23,494 nt of DNA from a virus. The translations under genes and the position numbers were made by a program. Positions within the stretch are counted from its first letter, which is position 1; each line of letters opens with the position of its first letter. Under the pieces are notes generated by a model. That model saw only the letters and a program-made list of their open reading frames with translations. It was not told the DNA's origin and made no database searches. The DNA lies in IMG/VR virus record IMGVR_UViG_3300015371_000184, positions 1 through 23,494 of that record; one strand, given 5' to 3'. Of this stretch, positions 5,399 through 16,344 are shown one piece after another.

Positions 5399-5751
5399 AC
5401 CGCTTCGAACGACTCATTTACAAGCCGTTCTTCAGCACCTGGCGGCGGGAGGCCATCACCTTCGGCTGCCTGGTTGCGTTCAACGTCGGCATGGCCCTGG
5501 TGAATCCCCAGATGGCGCCCATCAGCTGGCTCGCCGCGGGCTTCGCGCTGTACCCGCTCGCGACCGTGCTAGCCGACCGCGTCTTGGGCCTACACAGCAC
5601 GCCCAAGCTGTCCCATGCCGAGCGCGCCGAAATTGAGCGCGAGATTTGGGATACCCTACTCAAGGTGAGGCGCGAGGCGGTCGAGGCGGGTCTGTTCCCG
5701 CCGGGCAGCATCGACATCGAGCTGCAGAGGCCCAAGGAACGGAAGCACTAA
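5395..5751 (+). CDS. Two-span membrane protein (118 aa)
   Basis: The start shares ATGA with the previous stop. Two hydrophobic segments are visible, about residues 18-36 (A-I-T-F-G-C-L-V-A-F-N-V-G) and 44-62 (W-L-A-A-G-F-A-L-Y-P-L-A-T-V-L), followed by a charged, probably cytoplasmic helical tail (A-E-I-E-R-E-I-W). It is not close to the late lysis cassette, so a holin role is less likely than an early membrane function. The next start overlaps its stop. Confidence 0.7.
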   Translation: MNRFERLIYKPFFSTWRREAITFGCLVAFNVGMALVNPQMAPISWLAAGFALYPLATVLADRVLGLHSTPKLSHAERAEIEREIWDTLLKVRREAVEAGLFPPGSIDIELQRPKERKH

Positions 5752-6482
5752 TGAAACGCGGTGGTGGGGTACTCAAAGGCGGGCGGTTCGAGCGCGACAC
5801 CTGCAAGAAGCTGTCGATGTGGGTGAGCGGCGGCAATGGCGACGTGTTCTGGCGCACGGCGGGCAGCGGCGGCCGGTCCACCATGGCGGCGCGCCGGGGC
5901 GAGGACGTACGCCAGGCGGGCGACGTCTGCGCGGTCAGCCACGAGGGTTACGCCTTCTGCGCCACCTGGTACCTCGAACTCAAGCACTACCGCGACCTCA
6001 ATATCGAGAGCTTCTTCTTCAAAGGCCGCGGCCTCTTGGCGAAGTTCTGGAAGCGAGCCAAGTCTGAAGCCCAGCGGCGCGAGCGTCAACCGATGCTGAT
6101 CGCCAAGCAGAACAACCTGCCGACGTTGGTGTTGCTAACGCACGCGAGACCCGGGGTGGTGTCGCGTGCCGTCAGCAATCGCGAGCGCTGCGCCGTGTAT
6201 CTATTAGCCGACATGCTTGCCACCGACCCCTGGTACTGGACCCATGCTCTTGATCACCGCCGACCTGCACCTGAACGCCAATCCCCGCGACGAGTACCGG
6301 CACGAGTTCCAGAAGGAGCTGCGGGCCATGGTGCGCAAGTACAAGCCCGCGGGCGTCGCGCTGCTGGGCGATCTGACGGACTTCAAGGACGAGCACCCGG
6401 CGGTCCTGGTCAACCGCATAGTCGACCACCTCTACCGCCTAGCCCAGCTGGCCCCGGTGGTCGTCCTCCGCGGCAACCATGA
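5751..6482 (+). CDS. PD-(D/E)XK-type endonuclease with a long C-terminal overlap
   Basis: The ATG at 5751 overlaps the previous stop. Residues 1-165 look like a resolvase-type PD-(D/E)XK nuclease: F-E-R-D (E14) in the first helix, W-R-T-A-G-S-G-G-R, G-D-V (D58), then E-L-K (E76, K78) in the core, and I-A-K-Q-N-N-L-P-T later. Such enzymes cleave DNA (branched DNA or host DNA) with metal ions. It sits directly before the SbcD/SbcC-type genes, which suggests a recombination or DNA-degradation module. After about residue 165 the sequence turns into R/P/G/A-rich text and runs 239 bases into the SbcD-type gene. That tail looks like a shadow of the overlapping gene, so the natural end may be near 6250 and the present end may reflect a lost stop or a frameshift. 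Confidence 0.75.
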   Translation: MKRGGGVLKGGRFERDTCKKLSMWVSGGNGDVFWRTAGSGGRSTMAARRGEDVRQAGDVCAVSHEGYAFCATWYLELKHYRDLNIESFFFKGRGLLAKFWKRAKSEAQRRERQPMLIAKQNNLPTLVLLTHARPGVVSRAVSNRERCAVYLLADMLATDPWYWTHALDHRRPAPERQSPRRVPARVPEGAAGHGAQVQARGRRAAGRSDGLQGRAPGGPGQPHSRPPLPPSPAGPGGRPPRQP

Positions 6483-7236
6483 TATGGCTGGGGAACCGGC
6501 TTTCTTCGCCTTTGCGGGCCGCAGTGAGGGGATTTGGTGGGTTGGGGCTCCCACCATGCCCGGCGAGCTGGAAAACGCACCCACGGCGCTCCTAGAGGCT
6601 CTGGGAAAGGCCCTGTTCCTGCCCCACAGCCATGACCCCCGCCGGGAATGGGCCGATCTGCCCAAGTGGGCCCGGTGGATCTTCGCTCACCAGACCTTCG
6701 CCGGGGCCCGGAACGAACGCGGCACCGTCCTGGACGGCGCCCCGCCGAGCCTCATACCCAAGGGCGCCCGGGTCGTGTCCGGCGACGTGCACGTGCCGCA
6801 GGACGGCCTGGTCACTTATGTCGGCGCCCCGTACACCATCGACTTCGGCGACGACTACGCGCCGCGGGTGCTGCTACTGCAGAATGACAAGCTCACCTCG
6901 CTACCCTGCACCGGCCCGCAGAAGCGCCTTATCATCTTCAAGCACGGCAACACCATCCACAACGCCAAGCCCGGCGACATCGTCAAGATCCAGGTCCAGC
7001 TCGACCGCGGCGACTACGCGCGCTGGGGCGAGATCAAGGACAAGGCGGCGAGCTGGGCGCAGAAGCTGGAGCTGAACGTGCACATGATTCAGCCGGTGGT
7101 CGCCGCCGCGGCGCGTATGTCTAGCAAGCGGCCACGCAGCGAGCCGAAATCTGACCGGGAGCTGGTCGAGAACTACGCCAAGGCAGCCAAGCTCGACGAG
7201 CTGACCGTCAAGGTGGGAATGAACCTATTGGGGTGA
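6244..7236 (+). CDS. Mre11/SbcD-type metallophosphoesterase nuclease subunit (330 aa)
   Basis: The start is ATG 6244 (M-L-L-I-T-A-D-L-H-L); an in-frame TTG at 6217 would only add a P/G-rich leader. Calcineurin-like motifs appear in order: D7-x-H9, G-D-L-T-D (D43), G-N-H-D (N78, H79), A-H-Q (H149) and G-D-V-H (H183), the last replacing the usual G-H-x-H. The family binds two Mn ions and cuts DNA ends with its Rad50/SbcC partner; in phage T4 the equivalent pair is gp47/gp46. The matching ATPase lies at 8735, separated by seven small genes. The C-terminal 100 residues are helical and basic and would contact DNA or the ATPase coiled-coil base (inference). Confidence 0.88.
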   Translation: MLLITADLHLNANPRDEYRHEFQKELRAMVRKYKPAGVALLGDLTDFKDEHPAVLVNRIVDHLYRLAQLAPVVVLRGNHDMAGEPAFFAFAGRSEGIWWVGAPTMPGELENAPTALLEALGKALFLPHSHDPRREWADLPKWARWIFAHQTFAGARNERGTVLDGAPPSLIPKGARVVSGDVHVPQDGLVTYVGAPYTIDFGDDYAPRVLLLQNDKLTSLPCTGPQKRLIIFKHGNTIHNAKPGDIVKIQVQLDRGDYARWGEIKDKAASWAQKLELNVHMIQPVVAAAARMSSKRPRSEPKSDRELVENYAKAAKLDELTVKVGMNLLG

Positions 7237-8109: not shown

Positions 8110-8428
8110 GCTCGCGCTGTGCATCGTCGCTTGGTTGCTGGTGCTGGAGCTGGCGCAGGCCGCCGAGCCATGCGCCGTCGCCCCGGGCGAACCGCGCTCG
8201 GAGTGGCACTATCGGACCCAGGTGCCCGGCTTCGCCAAGGGCGCCAAGGGCGACCGCTGCTGGTATCTTGGGCCTGCAATGAAGCCGCGTTCCGAACTTT
8301 TCTGGGATCTCACCGCACCCGACCGCTCCGTTCCTGCACATCCGATCCACTCCGCACCAACCCTTGACGAAAGGTTTCATACGCCGTGGAAGTGGACCGA
8401 TCCCTCCGGCTGGTCGCATCAGGAATGA
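8102..8428 (+). CDS. Secreted/periplasmic small protein (108 aa)
   Basis: ATG 8102 begins a Sec-type signal peptide: basic start (M-I-K), hydrophobic core (C-I-V-A-W-L-L-V-L-E-L) and an A-Q-A-A cleavage region near residue 23. The mature part has two cysteines (E-P-C-A and D-R-C-W-Y) that could form a disulfide, then a proline- and tryptophan-rich tail. The D-R-C-W-Y-L-G string resembles a small secreted protein type seen in phages and rhizobia (recalled). A role outside the cytoplasm, perhaps against superinfection or in the host envelope, is inference. Confidence 0.7.
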   Translation: MIKLALCIVAWLLVLELAQAAEPCAVAPGEPRSEWHYRTQVPGFAKGAKGDRCWYLGPAMKPRSELFWDLTAPDRSVPAHPIHSAPTLDERFHTPWKWTDPSGWSHQE

Positions 8429-8432
8429 CCGA

Positions 8433-8738
8433 ATGAATCGTATCCTTGAACTGCGCGAGAGGTGCTTGAAGCGGCTGCCGCCGAATGTGTTGAGCAAGTA
8501 TCGTCAGACCGAGCTGGATGCGTTCTTTCTGGTTATTGCGCTATGCGGCGAGGTCGGCGAGCTGGCCAACTTATTCAAGAAAATGCGGCGCGGCGACCCG
8601 ATCAAGATGGAGGCAATCGTCGACGAGATGGCGGACATCCGCGTCTACCTCGAATTGTTGGCCAAGCTGCATGGCGTCGACCTGGAGGATGCAGTCGAAG
8701 CGAAGCTAGAGAAGATTGTGGAGCGCTACCGGGAATGA
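8433..8738 (+). CDS. MazG-like nucleotide pyrophosphohydrolase (101 aa)
   Basis: ATG 8433 starts four bases after the preceding stop. The protein is all-helical with the family's metal-binding motifs: G-E-V-G-E-L (about residues 37-42) with the following K-K-M-R-R, then D-E-M-A-D-I (about 67-72). Members hydrolyse NTPs or dNTPs to the monophosphate; phage copies are thought to tune nucleotide pools or lower (p)ppGpp. At 101 residues it is a single-domain form. Its stop overlaps the start of the SbcC-type ATPase (ATGA at 8735), so the two are co-translated. Confidence 0.88.
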   Translation: MNRILELRERCLKRLPPNVLSKYRQTELDAFFLVIALCGEVGELANLFKKMRRGDPIKMEAIVDEMADIRVYLELLAKLHGVDLEDAVEAKLEKIVERYRE

Positions 8739-10453
8739 ACCTGGAATTTATCGAGCTGCGGCTGCAGGGCTTCAAGCAGTTTATCAAGCCCGTGATCTTC
8801 GCGCTGTCGGCGTCCGGCGGCGGGTTGGTGCTCATGCGCGGCCGCAACGAGGTCGAGCCTGCGCTCGGCGCCAATGACGTAGGCAAGTCGTCGCTGTTCG
8901 ACGCCCTGACCTGGTGCCTGTTCGGTCGCACCGTCGACAATCTACACAGCACCGACCTGCGCTCGTGGCAGGAGGCGCCGCCGCTGCAGGTCGAGGTCAC
9001 CGTGGCCATCGCCGCCGCCAACGGCGACGGCAGCAAGGTGCACAAGATCGCCCGCGGCAGGCGGCTGACGCTCGACGGCGCGCCGGTCGGCCAGGACCAG
9101 ATAACCCGGCTGCTGCGGCTGAACTTCGACGTATTCGCCAACACCGTATTGCTCGGCCAGGGGCGGCCGCTGTTCTTCGACCTAGAGCCGCGCAACAAGA
9201 TGGAGCTGTTCTCGGCGGCGCTGGAGCTGGAGCGCTGGGAGGTGCGCTCGGAGGCGGCGGCCTGGGAAGTCGAGACCATGGAGAAGAAGCTGCAGCGCGA
9301 GAAGGAAACGCAGGGCAGCATCAAGGCTACCCTGGAACAGGCGCAGAAGCTGCTGGAGGACACCAAGCGGAGGTCGCAGGAGTGGGAGACGCAGCGGAAG
9401 GAGCGGATCGCCAAGAACCGCCAGGCTGCGGAGGAGCTGGAGAAGCAGCTGGAGCCATTGCGGCGCCAGCGCGACGACGCCGATCTGGCCTACGACGGCG
9501 CCGAGACCGAGTACAAGGCGCAGGCCCGCGCCGTGGCCGACCTGGAGAAGCTGGTCACCGTGACCACGACGAGCTACGCGCGCGCGGAGGCGGCGGCGAA
9601 GAAGTGCCCGACCTGCGGCCAGCCGATCAAGGCCGACGTGCCAGCCAAGTACAAGGCGGCGAAGGAGAGCGCCGAGAGTGACCTGGCACATGCGCGCAAG
9701 TACGCGCAGACATTCCGCACCAAAGCCGACGCTGCCAGCGCGACGCTGCACCGGCTCAACCCCAGAGTAACCGAGCTGGAGACCAAGCTCCGCGGGCTAA
9801 CCAACAGCCACCTGGAGCACGAGGACGAAGAGAACCCACACCGCCCGCAGGTCGGCGAGCTGCAACGTTGCGTGCAGCAGCACGAGGCCAACCTCGCTAT
9901 AACCGAAGAGGTCGTCGGCAAGGTCTTGGCGCAGATCGCACGCACCAAGGTGTGGGTGAAAGGCTTCAAGGACATTCGGCTGGCTATTGTCGAGGACGTG
10001 CTGCAAGAGCTACAGCTAGCCACCAACGCGCTGCTGCCGGAGAGCGGGCTGCAGGACTGGGAGGTGCACTATGGGATCGAGCAAGAGACCAAGTCAGGCA
10101 CCATCCGGCGCGGGCTCACCGTGACCGTGTTATCGCCGTACAACGACCAGCCGGTGCGTTGGGAGAGCTGGGGCGGCGGCGTCGGCCAGCGGCTGCGGCT
10201 CATTGGCGCCCTGGCGCTGTCCGAGGTGCTGCTGCGCCATGCAGGGGTGGGCACCAACCTGGAGATCCTCGACGAGCCGACCCAGTACTTCTCGCCGAAG
10301 GGGGTCGAGTACATGTGCGAATTCCTGGCGTCGCGCGCGCGGACGCTGGACAAGAACATCGTTCTGGTCGACCATCACGCGGTCGAGAGCGCGCAGTTCA
10401 GCGGCGTAGTCACGGTGGTGAAGACCGCGGCCGGGTCCATGGTGGAGGGTTAG
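8735..10453 (+). CDS. Rad50/SbcC-type ATPase with zinc hook (572 aa)
   Basis: The start is ATG 8735, in an ATGA overlap with the MazG-like gene; an in-frame upstream extension to 8462 is a shadow. Walker A is G-A-N-D-V-G-K-S-S (45-53), the Q-loop-like region is near 140 (L-L-G-Q-G-R), and a coiled-coil arm runs from 165 to 285. The zinc hook is C-P-T-C-G-Q (C291, C294), and a second coiled coil runs 300-400. An ABC signature-like stretch is G-G-G-V-G-Q-R (480-486), Walker B is I-L-D-E-P-T (511-516), and D-H-H (546-548) is near the end. The arms are short, as in phage T4 gp46. It partners the nuclease at 6244 for DNA-end processing in recombination, replication or host DNA breakdown (known of the family). 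Confidence 0.92.
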   Translation: MNLEFIELRLQGFKQFIKPVIFALSASGGGLVLMRGRNEVEPALGANDVGKSSLFDALTWCLFGRTVDNLHSTDLRSWQEAPPLQVEVTVAIAAANGDGSKVHKIARGRRLTLDGAPVGQDQITRLLRLNFDVFANTVLLGQGRPLFFDLEPRNKMELFSAALELERWEVRSEAAAWEVETMEKKLQREKETQGSIKATLEQAQKLLEDTKRRSQEWETQRKERIAKNRQAAEELEKQLEPLRRQRDDADLAYDGAETEYKAQARAVADLEKLVTVTTTSYARAEAAAKKCPTCGQPIKADVPAKYKAAKESAESDLAHARKYAQTFRTKADAASATLHRLNPRVTELETKLRGLTNSHLEHEDEENPHRPQVGELQRCVQQHEANLAITEEVVGKVLAQIARTKVWVKGFKDIRLAIVEDVLQELQLATNALLPESGLQDWEVHYGIEQETKSGTIRRGLTVTVLSPYNDQPVRWESWGGGVGQRLRLIGALALSEVLLRHAGVGTNLEILDEPTQYFSPKGVEYMCEFLASRARTLDKNIVLVDHHAVESAQFSGVVTVVKTAAGSMVEG

Positions 10454-11397: not shown

Positions 11398-12408
11398 TTA
11401 GAGCTGGCTGCCCGGAGAGACGGCCTGGTAGAAGAACACGCCGAGGTCCTGGGAGACCTGGGCGAGATCCCACGCCATGCGATTCTGGAAGTAATCGCTG
11501 TGGGCACGGTCGTCGCGGCCGCGCTGCATGACGCCACCAATCGCGTTGGTGGATCCGGGGATCAGTCCCGTCCACGCGAAGTTGGCGATAGCAGTCGGCG
11601 AGTCGAGGCCGGGGTTCGGGTCGATGTAGCACAGCAACATGCTGTTCTTGTCAGTGATGTAGCTGAAAGCGTCAGCCGCACCTTCCGTCGCGCTGTTGTA
11701 GATGCTGCGCGCGACGAACACGTTGTCGACTTCGAACAGTGATGCAAGCATGTCCTCGTCGGCGACCCCGATCTGCGTATATTTGATGCGGTCGGCGACG
11801 TCGGCGTGACTACGCAAAACTTTCTTCACATTCGCGCCAAGCACAAGTGTATTGGGCATATAGCCCGTCTTCTCGTGCATCACGTCTTTCCAGTGGTCGA
11901 TGTCCTGGATCGGCGTCGAGCCAGGGTCATTGAACTGGTGCAGCTGGTTGGCGCCGGGGCCAGAAGCGACGCCGGTGACCTCGGTGGTCCACTTGCCGGT
12001 GCCGAAGAACTTCTGCGCCCATATGCGATCCTGCTTCAGGAGCTGCTTCATGGTGAGCAGGGTCGTGGCAGTCTCGTCCAGCTTGATGGGGTCGTCGACG
12101 TTGGCACGCTGCCGGTCGTCAATGACGTGCTCCAAGCCGTACTCGGTCGCGATATAGCTCCCGGACGAAACCTTGTATCCGACTTGCACCGGACGCCCAC
12201 CCAAAGCTCTGGGCTGGGCCTCGTCTCGCCAGAAGTAACCGCGGTCGTAGACCACGTAGGTGTCGGTCTGTTTCAGAACCGAAATGACGCTCGCTGCGCG
12301 CTGCGCAACGAAGTTACGCCGGTCCTGAACGAACTGAACCGAGAAGTCAGTGAGGTACCGGTCGACGTGAAGGGTACCTTGAATAAATTCCTGGCCAGCT
12401 ACGGGCAT
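11398..12408 (-). CDS. Major capsid protein (336 aa)
   Basis: The ATG at 12408 follows AAAGGAAAAATTCC. The protein has the layout of HK97-fold capsid proteins of the E-like class: an N-arm (F-I-Q-G-T-L-H-V-D-R-Y-L-T), the P-domain spine, T-G-Y-M-P-N-T-L-V-L-G-A-N-V (about 190-203), and a C-terminal beta region with W-T-G-L-I-P-G. No long N-terminal delta domain is present, which fits a separate scaffold gene upstream. Position after scaffold and decoration genes supports the call. It builds the icosahedral shell. Confidence 0.85.
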   Translation of the reverse strand: MPVAGQEFIQGTLHVDRYLTDFSVQFVQDRRNFVAQRAASVISVLKQTDTYVVYDRGYFWRDEAQPRALGGRPVQVGYKVSSGSYIATEYGLEHVIDDRQRANVDDPIKLDETATTLLTMKQLLKQDRIWAQKFFGTGKWTTEVTGVASGPGANQLHQFNDPGSTPIQDIDHWKDVMHEKTGYMPNTLVLGANVKKVLRSHADVADRIKYTQIGVADEDMLASLFEVDNVFVARSIYNSATEGAADAFSYITDKNSMLLCYIDPNPGLDSPTAIANFAWTGLIPGSTNAIGGVMQRGRDDRAHSDYFQNRMAWDLAQVSQDLGVFFYQAVSPGSQL

Positions 12409-12455: not shown

Positions 12456-12827
12456 TTACCCGCGCTCCATCAACACTGAGATGATTGTGCCCGCGGCGCC
12501 GCCGGTGAGAGCGGTTCCGGCACCGACGCCAGAGACGTAGGTGATAGCGAGCCCGTTAGCGTCGGAGCTAAGACGCGCCCCGGCGGCGACGGCGACGGCG
12601 CCGACCAACACCTTGGCGATACCGCTGACCTGCACGGTCACCGGCTTGCCGACAGTGGTCGAGCCCGCCTCTTCGGTAACGACACCGAGCACGGTGTCGT
12701 TCGCCCCAGCCAGCACCACCTGATTGTCGGTGGTGTCGGACTTGACGAAGTAGTGCAGCTTTCCAGTCAGGTCGGCGCCCTGCCCTAGGGCAATGACGTC
12801 CGTCCCGTCCATACGAGCGTATGCCAT
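12456..12827 (-). CDS. Capsid decoration (cement)-like protein (123 aa)
   Basis: The ATG at 12827 follows AAAAGGAGATTCACGAA. The protein is beta-rich and low in charge, with G-K-L-H-Y-F-V-K, V-V-L-A-G-A-N-D-T-V-L-G-V-V-T and V-Q-V-S-G-I-A-K-V-L-V-G strings, then a glycine/alanine-rich end. This pattern fits small proteins that bind the outside of the expanded capsid and stabilise it. Its place between scaffold and major capsid genes is the usual one. The exact family cannot be fixed without a profile search. Confidence 0.75.
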   Translation of the reverse strand: MAYARMDGTDVIALGQGADLTGKLHYFVKSDTTDNQVVLAGANDTVLGVVTEEAGSTTVGKPVTVQVSGIAKVLVGAVAVAAGARLSSDANGLAITYVSGVGAGTALTGGAAGTIISVLMERG

Positions 12828-12891: not shown

Positions 12892-13740
12892 TTAGTTGCC
12901 TTGGTAGGCCTTGAACTCGTCCGGGTACTGCAGCCGCGCCTTGGTCATCGCGTCACTGCGTGACATGTTCTTGTTGGCTGCCTGGATCTCGTCGATCCGC
13001 TTCTTGAAGTCGGTCGCACCGCGGCGCGCTTTCTCGATCTCGTCCGGGGAGGTGCCGCGACCGACCGACTCGAAGGCCTTGCCAGCCAGCTTCTCTGACT
13101 GGGTGAAGACCGCCTCGAAGGCCTTGCGCAGCGGCTCTTCCAGCGCGTCCATGACCTTGAGCATGTTGGCCCGCTCTTGGGTCGTACCCGGGACGTGCGC
13201 GTAGAGATCGTCCGCCCGCTTGGTCAGCTCGGCCATTTCACGGGCATCGCGCTCCTTGCGAATGTCCGCCTCGGCCTGCGCCAACTTCGTCGACGTCGCC
13301 TTCAGGATGGCGAACTGCGCGTCGCCGACCACCGACTTACGGATCTCGTGGCCTTCGAGCGTGCAGACTTCGTCCTTGGACTTCTTCAGGTCCATGTCGC
13401 GGCGCCGTTCGGCGACCGACTTGGCCATGAACGCCTTCTTGGCCGCGGCGTCCGCGTCCTTGCAGAACTCCTTCTCGTCCACCGTCATGGTGGCGTCGAG
13501 CTTGAGCGCTTCGTTCTCGGCCTTGGCTTCGTCCAGTTGCTTCTGGACTTCGGCCAGCGCCTTCTTGGTCTCCTGCGCCTCTTCCTCTTCGTCGTCCGCA
13601 GACACGAAGGGAGGCGGCTTCTTGGCCTTGTCCAATTCCCCCTTCGCCTCGATTGCGGCGTTGAGGGTCTTGGTCAGCTCCTCAACCTGCTTTTCCAGGT
13701 TGGCGATGGTGACGTCTTCGTCTTTCTCGTTCTCAGCCAT
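12892..13740 (-). CDS. Scaffold-like head assembly protein (282 aa)
   Basis: The ATG at 13740 follows TAGGAGAGCC. The protein is highly charged and helical: a leucine-zipper-like N-terminus (I-A-N-L-E-K-Q-V-E-E-L-T-K-T-L), an acidic stretch (D-D-E-E-E-E-A), a second coiled coil (A-L-A-E-V-Q-K-Q-L-D-E-A-K), and A-A-A-K-K-A-F-M-A-K-S-V-A-E-R, a string typical of phage scaffold or protease C-terminal regions. The C-terminus is basic and would bind the capsid protein. Scaffolds guide shell assembly and are then removed, here presumably by the XkdF-type protease domain encoded upstream. The leader carries an unusual alternative hairpin. Confidence 0.8.
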   Translation of the reverse strand: MAENEKDEDVTIANLEKQVEELTKTLNAAIEAKGELDKAKKPPPFVSADDEEEEAQETKKALAEVQKQLDEAKAENEALKLDATMTVDEKEFCKDADAAAKKAFMAKSVAERRRDMDLKKSKDEVCTLEGHEIRKSVVGDAQFAILKATSTKLAQAEADIRKERDAREMAELTKRADDLYAHVPGTTQERANMLKVMDALEEPLRKAFEAVFTQSEKLAGKAFESVGRGTSPDEIEKARRGATDFKKRIDEIQAANKNMSRSDAMTKARLQYPDEFKAYQGN

Positions 13741-13830: not shown

Positions 13831-14274
13831 CTAGAGCTTGGCGTACGCAGCGATGGCTTCGCGCAGCTCGTCGACCTTGGACTTGAGCACTAGCAGCGGC
13901 GGAATACGCCGCGGCAGCGACTTGGACACGTTCCAGCTGTCCGGCAGCAGGGAGGTCGCGCCCAACGCACGAGCGCGGGCGATAATGTGCCGCCGGGTGG
14001 CGTCCGGGTTCTTCGCCCGTCCTATCGCCTGGATGGCGTTAGACAGGTCCTTGGTATTGGCTATCGGGTAGCCGCCGCCGGACATGGCCTGGCCGCGGTC
14101 GGCCATACGCTGGCGCTGCTCAGCAGTGAATTGCCGCTTATAGAATTCTTCGTTGTCGTCCGGCTCGTCGTCAGCCCTTTTCATTATCATCATTCTTGCG
14201 TGCTCTTGGCACGGGTTGTCCACGCAGCTGATCTCGTGGAGCTTTAGCTTGCGGAGGATTCGTCGCTTCGGCAT
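13831..14274 (-). CDS. DUF6582-like head-region protein (147 aa)
   Basis: The ATG at 14274 follows GAAGGAGACGAAG. Two known-looking pieces are visible: L-H-E-I-S-C-V-D-N-P (about 12-21), a phrase typical of the ends of XkdF-like phage proteases and related head proteins, and Y-P-I-A-N-T-K-D-L-S-N-A-I-Q-A-I-G-R (about 70-87) with H-I-I-A-R-A-R-A-L-G-A, the core of the DUF6582 type. No catalytic site. It sits between the protease fusion and the scaffold, so it probably took over a part usually fused to the protease (inference). A 65-residue gene overlaps its start by 104 bases. Confidence 0.75.
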   Translation of the reverse strand: MPKRRILRKLKLHEISCVDNPCQEHARMMIMKRADDEPDDNEEFYKRQFTAEQRQRMADRGQAMSGGGYPIANTKDLSNAIQAIGRAKNPDATRRHIIARARALGATSLLPDSWNVSKSLPRRIPPLLVLKSKVDELREAIAAYAKL

Positions 14275-14368
14275 CTTCGTCTCCTTCGGTCGGGTGCCCG
14301 GTCCACGGATTCTCCTTGTCGAAGGCGAGCACGCGGTGCAGCCATTGCGTTGCTGGTGATTCAGCCAT
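14171..14368 (-). CDS. Possible small overlapping protein (65 aa)
   Basis: Its ATG at 14368 overlaps the stop of the protease fusion (TAATG), so it would be translated by coupling. The first half (A-T-Q-W-L-H-R-V-L-A-F-D-K-E-N-P-W-T-G-H) looks like real protein. The second half, which overlaps the next gene, is P/A/D/E-rich. It would explain the 94-base gap between the fusion stop and the next start. It has no recognised family. Confidence 0.45.
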   Translation of the reverse strand: MAESPATQWLHRVLAFDKENPWTGHPTEGDEDAEATNPPQAKAPRDQLRGQPVPRARKNDDNEKG

Positions 14369-16296
14369 TAGATTTTCACCTTCTTCGGGAAGTTGTTGGC
14401 GATATAGCCGTTGGCCATTCCCAGCGCCTGGGAGCCGTCGTTCGCCGCGCCGATCACCCGCCGCAGCGCCCCCTCGCGCACGTCGCCTGCGGCGTAGACC
14501 CCCGGCATACTAGTCTCCAGCGCGGCCCGCCCAGGACCGCCGACCTTGATGAAGCCCTTCTCGTCGCGGTCGAGGCTGCTTGCCCAGCTGGTGTTCGGCC
14601 TGGAGCCTATGGCATAGAGCACGCCGCGCGCCGGGATGGTGCCGCCACTTTTCAGCACCGCACCGGTCATACGCTTGTTCTGGTCGGTCTTGATCTCGGT
14701 GATAGCGTCACGCAGGACCCTGATCCGCGGGTGGTTCTCGACCTGGTCCCGCAGGTACTTGGACATGTCGTCGATGCCGCTGCGCGCGACCAACGTCACG
14801 CGGTTCGATCCGGCTGCGTCAATGGCTGCTTGCCCGGCCGAATTGGCGCCGCCGACGACAATGGCGTCGCCGCTGCCAACCCGCGCCTTCAGCGCGTCGG
14901 AGGAGCCGTACACAACGTCGGGGGAATCCGCGCCGGGAATGTTGATGTGGTTGAATTGCACGCCACCGGCAGCGATTACCGAGCGCGTCTGCACGCTGGA
15001 GCCGTCGTCGAAGCTCACGGTCTTCAATCCGGTCTTGGCATCGTAGGAGAGCCCCGTCACCCGCTTATCGAATTGCAAGTCGGCGCCCACGCGCTGCGCC
15101 TGTAGCGCGCTTTCCTTCGCCAGCGTCTCGCCCTTCACCCCGGCGGGAAAACCCATCAGGTTCTCGATGCGCGAGGAGGCGCCCGCCTGGCCGCCGGGTT
15201 TGTGCTCGGCCTCGACCACCATGGTGTTGAGACCTTCGGTGCCGCCGTAAATGCCCGCCGACAGCCCCGCTGGTCCCGCACCGATCACGACCACGTCGCG
15301 TATGGGGCCGGGCGTGCCGGTCACGCCTTCGTGCAGGCGTTCCGCGTGCATCTGGTCATTGATGCGCACCTGTTCATTGATTAGCTTGCTCACCACTCGG
15401 TCGGTCGGCGGCAGGCCCTGGTACTGGAACAGCTGGCGGTCGAGATAGGCCCAACGCTTGGTCATCCGGTCGCCTTTGGTCTGGTCGCCCTTGCCCTCGT
15501 AGGCGAAGCGGCCGTGCTCGCGCAGCTGGTCCTCACGGTACTTCTCGAAATGCTCGACGTCCTCGACCTCGACCCGGCGCCCGCCAATGGAGAAGCCGCG
15601 GTAGACGCCGGTGCGAAACTTCTCCAGGATCTCCGGGTTGGTCGGCTTCATGGCGATCATTAGCCCGGTCACCCGGGTGTTGATGCCCATAGCCTTGGCA
15701 ATGTCGGAGGTGAGCGGGAAGGCGAAGACGATGGTGCCCTGTTCGTCGCCGTTGTGCATGTCCTTGGCGACCCGGCTGTTCTGCATGAAGTCGGTGGCGC
15801 ACTCCAGCATGGACACTTCCGGGATATGCTCCGGCACAGAGCTGCCGTCCGGGTCGCGATTGAGGTCGTAATAGTCCTGGCCGTTCTTGGTGCAGACGAT
15901 AGCCCAGCCGAACACCAGCCCGAGCGAGTCGTCGACCTTGAATAGCGCGACGTCGAACTCGCCCTTCTGCACGTCGTCCATCATCGGGCAGTCGGCACCC
16001 AGCTCCACCGCGTGATCGTGGATCTGCTGCAGCATGGTCTGGTCACTCTTGGAGTGGCGCGCCCCGATCTTGGCGAACTCCTCCTGGGTGATCATGGCGG
16101 CGTGCTTCTGCGACTTCCACTGCTCGATCTGGTCCTTCAATCCCGTGAGCTGGCCGCTGACGTCGTCCAAGCGCTTGCCATAGTAGGCGGCGAGCGCCAT
16201 GCGAATGCGCTCAGCCTTCGACTTGCCGCGGAAGCGCTTGTCGTCGCTGTTCACGAAGTCGTCGATGTAATCAGCGGCGCTGCCACCAAGAGGCAT
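14368..16296 (-). CDS. XkdF-like prohead protease fused to a cysteine-free thioredoxin-reductase-like flavoprotein (642 aa)
   Basis: The ATG at 16296 follows GCGAGGTACTCC. Residues 1-95 are helical and include G-A-R-H-S-K-S-D, a string seen in phage head proteins. Residues 110-245 fit the XkdF-like serine protease domain: V-F-G-W-A-I-V, D-M-H-N-G (likely catalytic H181), and G-F-S-I-G-G (likely S236). After a charged linker, residues 333-636 form a full two-domain pyridine-nucleotide reductase: FAD site G-A-G-P-A-G (339-344), G-G-Q-A-G, NAD(P)H site V-G-G-A-N-S-A-G-Q-A-A (481-491), Y-A-I-G-S-R-P-N-T (561-569) and the second FAD contact Y-A-A-G-D-V (601-606). No cysteine occurs after C166, so the CxxC of true thioredoxin reductases is absent. 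The frame is uninterrupted across both parts. The protease part should mature the prohead; the reductase role is unknown. Confidence 0.88.
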   Translation of the reverse strand: MPLGGSAADYIDDFVNSDDKRFRGKSKAERIRMALAAYYGKRLDDVSGQLTGLKDQIEQWKSQKHAAMITQEEFAKIGARHSKSDQTMLQQIHDHAVELGADCPMMDDVQKGEFDVALFKVDDSLGLVFGWAIVCTKNGQDYYDLNRDPDGSSVPEHIPEVSMLECATDFMQNSRVAKDMHNGDEQGTIVFAFPLTSDIAKAMGINTRVTGLMIAMKPTNPEILEKFRTGVYRGFSIGGRRVEVEDVEHFEKYREDQLREHGRFAYEGKGDQTKGDRMTKRWAYLDRQLFQYQGLPPTDRVVSKLINEQVRINDQMHAERLHEGVTGTPGPIRDVVVIGAGPAGLSAGIYGGTEGLNTMVVEAEHKPGGQAGASSRIENLMGFPAGVKGETLAKESALQAQRVGADLQFDKRVTGLSYDAKTGLKTVSFDDGSSVQTRSVIAAGGVQFNHINIPGADSPDVVYGSSDALKARVGSGDAIVVGGANSAGQAAIDAAGSNRVTLVARSGIDDMSKYLRDQVENHPRIRVLRDAITEIKTDQNKRMTGAVLKSGGTIPARGVLYAIGSRPNTSWASSLDRDEKGFIKVGGPGRAALETSMPGVYAAGDVREGALRRVIGAANDGSQALGMANGYIANNFPKKVKI

Positions 16297-16313: not shown

Positions 16314-16344
16314 AAAAGCCCGGCCAGCAAGCGCCAGCCGGGCT
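16314..16344 (-). terminator. Hairpin with T run before the protease fusion gene
   Basis: AGCCCGGC and GCCGGGCT form an eight-pair stem with a 12-base loop, and TTT follows on the minus strand. It sits in the 100-base gap before the fusion gene, just upstream of its ribosome-binding site. It could partially terminate late transcripts and so set the ratio of lysis to head transcripts, or stabilise the downstream message. Confidence 0.5.

Follow-up and report, generated by a model that had tools for sequence, protein, structure and literature searches.

A single phage gene was found to encode both an XkdF-like head maturation protease and a reductase fold complete with its FAD and NAD(P)H sites in one protein. 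The gene is located on the minus strand at 16296-14368 of the window, i.e. of the whole stretch of DNA analysed, which is an entire IMG/VR virus record of 23.5 kb, linear and probably a fragment. Inspection of the ORF gave 642 amino acids without internal stop, from an ATG at 16296 to a TAA at 14370-14368; the first-pass annotation had read the same uninterrupted frame without stating the strand. We consider it fairly probable that the fusion is a cargo-carrying head maturation protease, which would bring an NAD(P)H flavoenzyme into the head and then into the next host.

No stop or frameshift, named in that annotation as an argument against the fusion, was found between residues 245 and 330. 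The codon score is 0.41 for the protease, 0.43 for the linker and 0.30 for the reductase, compared with 0.03-0.41 for the other genes of the window. GC3 is 0.90, 0.85 and 0.85, respectively, and GC by codon position (0.64/0.43/0.87) matches the other genes of this phage. Since protease, linker and reductase all resemble phage genes both in codon usage and in the GC content of each codon position, a hidden frameshift at residues 245-330 is unlikely. The protein contains three cysteines, at positions 103, 135 and 166; residues 249-642 are free of them.

The N-terminal region (residues 1-105; 15982..16296, minus strand) is helical in the model and contains the short modules DFVNSDDKRFRGKSKAERIRMALAAYYGKR and ARHSKSDQTMLQQIHDHAVELGA. 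The first module is also present at the C-terminal end of the protease gene of the closest relative, L010. Hence, these modules are shuffled among head genes. In L010 a TAA at 5673-5675 interrupts the frame within the shared GKSKA/RIQMALGAYYGKK module; the N-terminal module of the window therefore corresponds to a truncated C-terminal copy there.

The protease half and the head module

According to profiles, relatives and the structural model, residues 106-248 (15553..15981, minus strand) are an XkdF-like head maturation protease of predicted activity. Pfam PF14550 matched the window protein weakly, with 17.5 bits under a cut-off of 24 bits, and matched 77 of the 80 direct relatives at E<=0.01 (best 1.3e-24). 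Residues 116-248 share 35-70% identity with stand-alone protease genes of head modules. A serine protease of this type with H181 (15754-15756) and S236 (15589-15591) had been proposed beforehand, and the relatives bear this out. Both residues are among the few invariant ones in sets of 8, 52 and 80 sequences; together with D144 (15865-15867), G130 and G239 they are conserved in 80/80 relatives. AlphaFold predicted a confident alpha/beta domain at residues 116-240 of the fusion protein, and this fold matches XkdF models in BFVD (E to 5e-13). The Foldseek search of the 335-residue N-terminal model was clear against BFVD and uninformative against the PDB, because the helices of the model dominate there.

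The protease half is encoded in a head operon, upstream of scaffold and major capsid protein. A 147-aa head gene (13831..14274, minus strand) has the N-terminus KLHEISCVDNPCQEHARM, a DUF6582-like middle and a match to the head maturation protease profile phrog_80 (E 6e-7); N-terminus and middle of its product are both found again in head genes of L010. It is followed on the same strand by a 282-aa scaffold-like protein (12892..13740), assigned by position, acidic/coiled composition and its homologue in L010 (9416-10300), by a 123-aa protein annotated for capsid decoration or scaffolding (12456..12827; phrog_673, E 1.2e-15) and by the major capsid protein (11398..12408; phrog_1005 major head protein, E 6e-78; PF03864). 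The same order of head genes, with a stand-alone protease gene, occurs in RDJL, Rhizobium, Erythrobacter, 9NA and Vibrio phages. The loci of the RDJL/Rhizobium/9NA type resemble the window in scaffold, decoration protein and MCP-E downstream of the protease and in the invariant H181 and S236 of their PF14550 (Peptidase_S78_2) proteases, which reach 35-66% identity. In contrast to the window protein, these proteases end at about residue 248, lack a reductase and have any extra domains at the N-terminus. Just upstream of the fusion gene, inspection revealed a GC-rich hairpin followed by TTTT (16314..16343, minus strand), with a 12-nt loop outside the limits of the scan. The fusion gene may therefore open a new (head) transcription unit. 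On the plus strand of the window, ORF translations were assigned by inspection to a pair of SbcD-like phosphoesterase and SbcC-like ATPase (6217-7236 and 8462-10453), alongside a MazG-like ORF (8364-8738); their transcription runs toward the head module.

The first-pass annotation had suggested a search for the same fusion in other phages. Among 125 distinct strong relatives of the protease, 124 have a closed 3' end, and none of the 124 carries the reductase. Two of them extend more than 20 aa beyond residue 248, one with a 44-aa tail and one as a scaffold fusion. Furthermore, no thioredoxin reductase (TrxR) was detected near the first 80 protease loci examined, or near 8 prophage-type protease loci in genomes, and the 110-kb record of the closest protease relative is devoid of reductases. 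The exact pairing of protease and reductase is thus known from one contig.

Additions at the other end of the protease are frequent: 50 of 117 relatives have N-terminal extensions of at least 80 aa, and within 142 distinct proteases Acb1 was found in 11 and a ParB-like domain in 15. Extra enzymes are thus common in the XkdF-like protease family; what sets the window apart is the end to which the enzyme is attached and the kind of cargo. The anti-CBASS nuclease Acb1 (PF23474) stands N-terminal to the protease in L010 (4272-5672) and L011 (977-2185), and also in L017, L024, L043, L045, L051, L063, L155, L175 and L194; these phages may deliver Acb1 in their heads. The ParB-like (DGHHR) domain lies N-terminal to the protease in L004, L022, L037, L038, L056, L067, L119, L127, L136, L138, L142, L195, L198, L200 and L202. 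PHROG lists phrog_1530 as 'DNA methyltransferase', which is probably a misnomer, because the C-terminal part of this profile is the XkdF protease. Two further loci, L085 (3771-6500) and L086 (3984-6713), encode XkdF proteases of 910 aa with about 360 extra C-terminal residues, which are RelA/SpoT-like by eye and gave no Pfam match. Long head-module proteins in L010 (6793-9345) and on the flanks of L085 and L086 are segmented by peptide repeats (such as GNPNHDPKTGKF / NPYHDELGRFA), which are candidate processing or packaging signals.

The reductase half and its head-linked relatives

Residues 333-636 (14389..15300, minus strand) form a cysteine-free, thioredoxin-reductase-like FAD/NAD(P)H flavoenzyme according to profiles, model and motifs. 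Pyr_redox_2 (PF07992) covers residues 334-621 (E 1.4e-31), and the model, of high confidence, has solved thioredoxin reductases as its closest matches (E 2.5e-27). Of the two approaches recommended with the first reading for both halves, structure prediction gave an XkdF-like fold and a reductase fold, and the profile search gave a clear match for the reductase and a match below the cut-off for the protease. The dinucleotide-binding motif for FAD, GAGPAG (339-344; 15265..15282), the FAD-contact motifs GGQA (368-371; 15184..15195) and GDVR (604-607; 14476..14487) and the NAD(P)H-binding motif GGANSAGQA (482-490; 14827..14853), all on the minus strand, are present, and the cofactor residues invariant across the reductase family are retained in the window.

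Hence, the initial description as a thioredoxin-reductase-like module holds for the fold, the FAD contacts and the NAD(P)H site; the redox function of that family does not follow, as the domain is devoid of cysteines and thus has no CxxC. The CxxC is likewise lacking in the phage and bacterial kin compared, with L094, an outgroup-like sequence from a phage record, as the single CxxC protein. A thioredoxin reductase proper was rejected for the window: besides the missing CxxC, the TIGR01292 score is 136 bits against an equivalog cut-off of 343. TrxB (TIGR01292) shares the fold and the FAD/NAD(P)H sites with the window reductase and differs from it by its redox CxxC. The closest bacterial kin are 'TrxR-like' oxidoreductases with a cyclic-nucleotide domain, at about 40% identity (up to about 42%). 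Like the window reductase, bacterial cysteine-less TrxR-like FAD oxidoreductases, plasmid examples included, combine FAD/NAD(P)H motifs with the lack of CxxC; in contrast to them, the window reductase has no cyclic-nucleotide-binding domain and groups in a distinct phage clade characterised by an N-terminal hairpin. An origin from a defence system was also rejected, as PADLOC gave a weak, generic desaturase match alone.

When IMG/VR was scanned with a single sequence as query, be it the entire protein, its reductase or its linker, no relative was detected; profile scans were needed to obtain the phage relatives of the reductase. Protease and reductase domains were aligned separately, since a joint MAFFT alignment displaced the reductase rows. 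The phage relatives are of two kinds, solo genes and head-linked ones. The tree unites the window reductase with 11 others in one clade (100/99.9) and separates them from 19 solo phage and bacterial sequences. The 11 other members all belong to uncultivated phages. Solo genes of about 315 aa, CxxC-less and thioredoxin-reductase-like, were observed in phage contigs (L096-L116), mostly outside head modules; their neighbours are mostly ParB, endonuclease and integrase-type genes. Solo phage reductases as the nearest phage kin were rejected, because they mostly have non-structural genes around them and fall outside the clade in the tree. The PHROG name of their profile, 'ribonucleotide reductase large subunit', is apparently a mislabel.

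Within the clade the reductase is linked to differing carriers. A Phage_portal_3 protein runs on into the reductase in L210/L256 (E 2e-102) and L255 (E 4e-78), and a portal-like protein of 2126 aa (L248; Phage_portal_3, E 1e-8) has the reductase at its end. Portal_Mu, Phage_Mu_F and reductase share one frame of 1998 aa in L251/L252, and a weak MuF-like match (E 4e-4) precedes the reductase in L253. The module is joined in one polypeptide with the anti-CBASS Acb1 in L216/L260 (E 5e-44) and with an ADP-ribosyltransferase in L247 (E 8e-15), the latter flanked by capsid and protease genes. In other members the reductase is a separate gene: in L246 it overlaps the 3' end of a portal gene, downstream of a terminase, in L250 it overlaps the gene of an XkdF protease (PF14550, E 6e-22), and in L254 it follows and adjoins a Phage_portal gene. 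The portal gene of L246 (2855-5215) is itself fused to an ADP-ribosyltransferase (PF03496, E 3e-13), with the reductase gene right after it. Hairpin and reductase thus recur as a module carried on head proteins of unrelated families, and the cofactor motifs are retained in the 11 clade relatives on these carriers. A 93-aa query (hairpin and start of the reductase) gave no match in 50,697 phage records, and a profile of the hairpin module found none in 385 genomes of the bacterial class of the host of L117; the module is therefore so far known solely from uncultivated viruses.

Protease and reductase of the window are connected by a junction at residues 249-269 (LREHGRFAYEGKG; 15490..15552, minus strand), where the protease genes of the relatives end. 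By eye it is like the 'HPR..G.F.xGGG' peptides standing ahead of the reductase module in other phages (L246-L260). A helical hairpin at residues 270-325 (15322..15489, minus strand) was recognized from alignment A11 and from the helices of the model. Against a profile of 10 others the copy of the window, at residues 270-317, reaches a weak score of 4 bits, collinear, compared with 2.5 bits at best in 1,000 shuffles, which weakly suggests a hairpin common to the window and the virion-linked reductase clade. Downstream of the reductase a 65-aa ORF (14171..14368, minus strand) is coupled to the stop of the fusion by TAATG. It begins with QWLHRVLAFDKENPWTGHPTEG, which matches the tail peptide 'LDKxNPWxGQTxE'. 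This peptide was found 3' of the reductase in 7/11 clade loci and in 0/21 solo reductase loci; the counts are supporting only, because the regular expression was composed with the window in view.

Proposed cargo function and alternative roles

From these comparisons we infer packaging, cleavage, injection, catalysis and purpose of the reductase module. The XkdF-like part would bind within the prohead at assembly and the C-terminal hairpin and flavoenzyme would be taken into the head. The module would survive maturation, either still attached or cut free near the linker (249-269), where cleavage is plausible, and would enter the next host together with the DNA on ejection. In the cytoplasm of that host, hydride would pass from host NAD(P)H to FAD and on to a non-disulfide acceptor. 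This route is deduced from the family chemistry: as the enzyme has no cysteines, the electrons should reach an acceptor other than a disulfide of its own, with a small molecule, a flavodoxin/ferredoxin-like partner or O2 as candidates. Right at the onset of infection, the enzyme could thereby adjust the redox state of the host or weaken one of its defences.

Cargo is the simplest account, because what the loci have in common is a link of the module to portal or MuF, which are built in, or to the protease, which enters the prohead. It is strengthened by the frequent position of the module beside domains already argued to be injected effectors. Packaging and delivery, as first suggested for the window, thus gain strong comparative support from the portal, MuF-like and multi-effector proteins and are still to be read as a deduction from sequence. 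In many cases, head proteases are broken down or do not remain in the mature capsid, as established for HK97-type systems; for this reason, carriage on a head protease does not guarantee ejection.

The main rival is a late-expressed cytoplasmic enzyme, which we regard as unlikely. The reductase would arise as a free protein, either by internal initiation at M278 or by proteolytic cleavage ahead of assembly, the fusion would serve co-expression only, and the unpackaged enzyme would support redox balance, nucleotide or cofactor supply in the infected cell. It is possible that initiation at M278 would release hairpin and reductase alone: sequence inspection showed a candidate internal start there (15463..15477, minus strand) with a Shine-Dalgarno-like AAAGG 7 nt ahead of the ATG. 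Also in favour of the rival, most of the 21 solo phage reductases are found in accessory, non-head neighbourhoods. However, the window reductase falls in the head-linked clade and not with the solo ones, and in L210/L256, L248, L251, L253 and L255 the module is part of virion-bound portal or MuF proteins, with no separate cytoplasmic form evident.

Less probable still is an inactive or structural use, in which the reductase fold would serve the prohead core for dimerisation or to fill space and would catalyse nothing. The window reductase deviates at 13 of the 72 alignment columns conserved to at least 88% in solo relatives, so it may have lost activity, and it formed a long branch in the first tree. 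Nevertheless, every FAD and NAD(P)H motif residue is retained, in the 11 relatives as well, and all 124 protease relatives with closed 3' end assemble heads without the reductase.

A role in head maturation, which the first-pass annotation had also considered, found no support; it could be a redox step, e.g. on capsid disulfides or cross-links. Position in the head operon and the physical link to the protease would fit such a step; a domain without CxxC or any cysteine, however, allows no thioredoxin-type disulfide exchange, and the relatives have the same head module without the reductase. As all protease relatives lack it and redox cysteines are absent, an assembly role is very improbable. 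Hardly credible is a chimera assembled from a phage contig and a bacterial gene: the fusion rests on a single contig, but the frame is unbroken, the best relatives are in phage head modules, the phage-like codon usage across protease, linker and reductase makes a misassembled bacterial insert unlikely, and two in-frame breakpoints would be needed because the tail peptide continues downstream in the coupled ORF.

Relation to known head-linked effectors

Effectors fused to MuF, to portal and to the serine peptidase that processes the capsid have been named before (PMC9503650), and 2H/Acb1-type, ART and Nudix domains on MuF, portal or capsid-processing peptidase are taken as packaged and injected (PMC5512222, PMC9503650). 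The window agrees with what defines a head-fused effector, as an enzymatic domain is fused to a virion-component domain beside head genes. With polyvalent or head-fused effectors (P1 DdrB, MuF-ART, portal-2H; PMC5512222, PMC9503650) it shares an enzyme on a virion protein within the head module, with Acb1, ParB-like and ART domains among its relatives; it differs in its cargo, a flavoenzyme. MuF polymorphic toxins (PMC5576092) likewise combine a head-protein carrier with a C-terminal enzyme. In contrast to these, the carrier in the window is a protease, and no MuF match, toxin fold or immunity gene was identified.

The pairing had been called unexpected for a head module. This does not apply to the principle, since fusions of effectors with head proteins are published and Acb1 and ParB-like additions are common; it does apply to the reductase. 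Thioredoxin-reductase-like or other flavoenzyme cargo is not mentioned in the main text of PMC5512222 or PMC9503650, and no description of a head-fused flavin reductase was found in the open-access literature. Thus, enzymes on head proteins, the protease included, are a known theme, and a cysteine-free NAD(P)H flavoenzyme as cargo looks new.

The targets of known injected phage effectors are nucleic acids, nucleotides, proteins (through ADP-ribosylation) or the cell wall. Our judgement is evenly balanced on the broader proposal that phages of several lineages eject a so far unreported cysteine-free flavoenzyme on portal, MuF-like, protease and multi-effector carriers, which would act on host redox, probably as counter-defence. 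On that reading, the enzyme would act in the first minutes of infection, beside Acb1 and ADP-ribosyltransferases. A flavin redox enzyme on several unrelated head proteins points to an undescribed redox step at the start of infection, for which the reductase clade supplies direct candidates for testing. The head protease, like MuF and portal, would offer a general site for attaching cargo destined for injection (Acb1, ParB-like, reductase), and this may be useful in finding more anti-defence genes.
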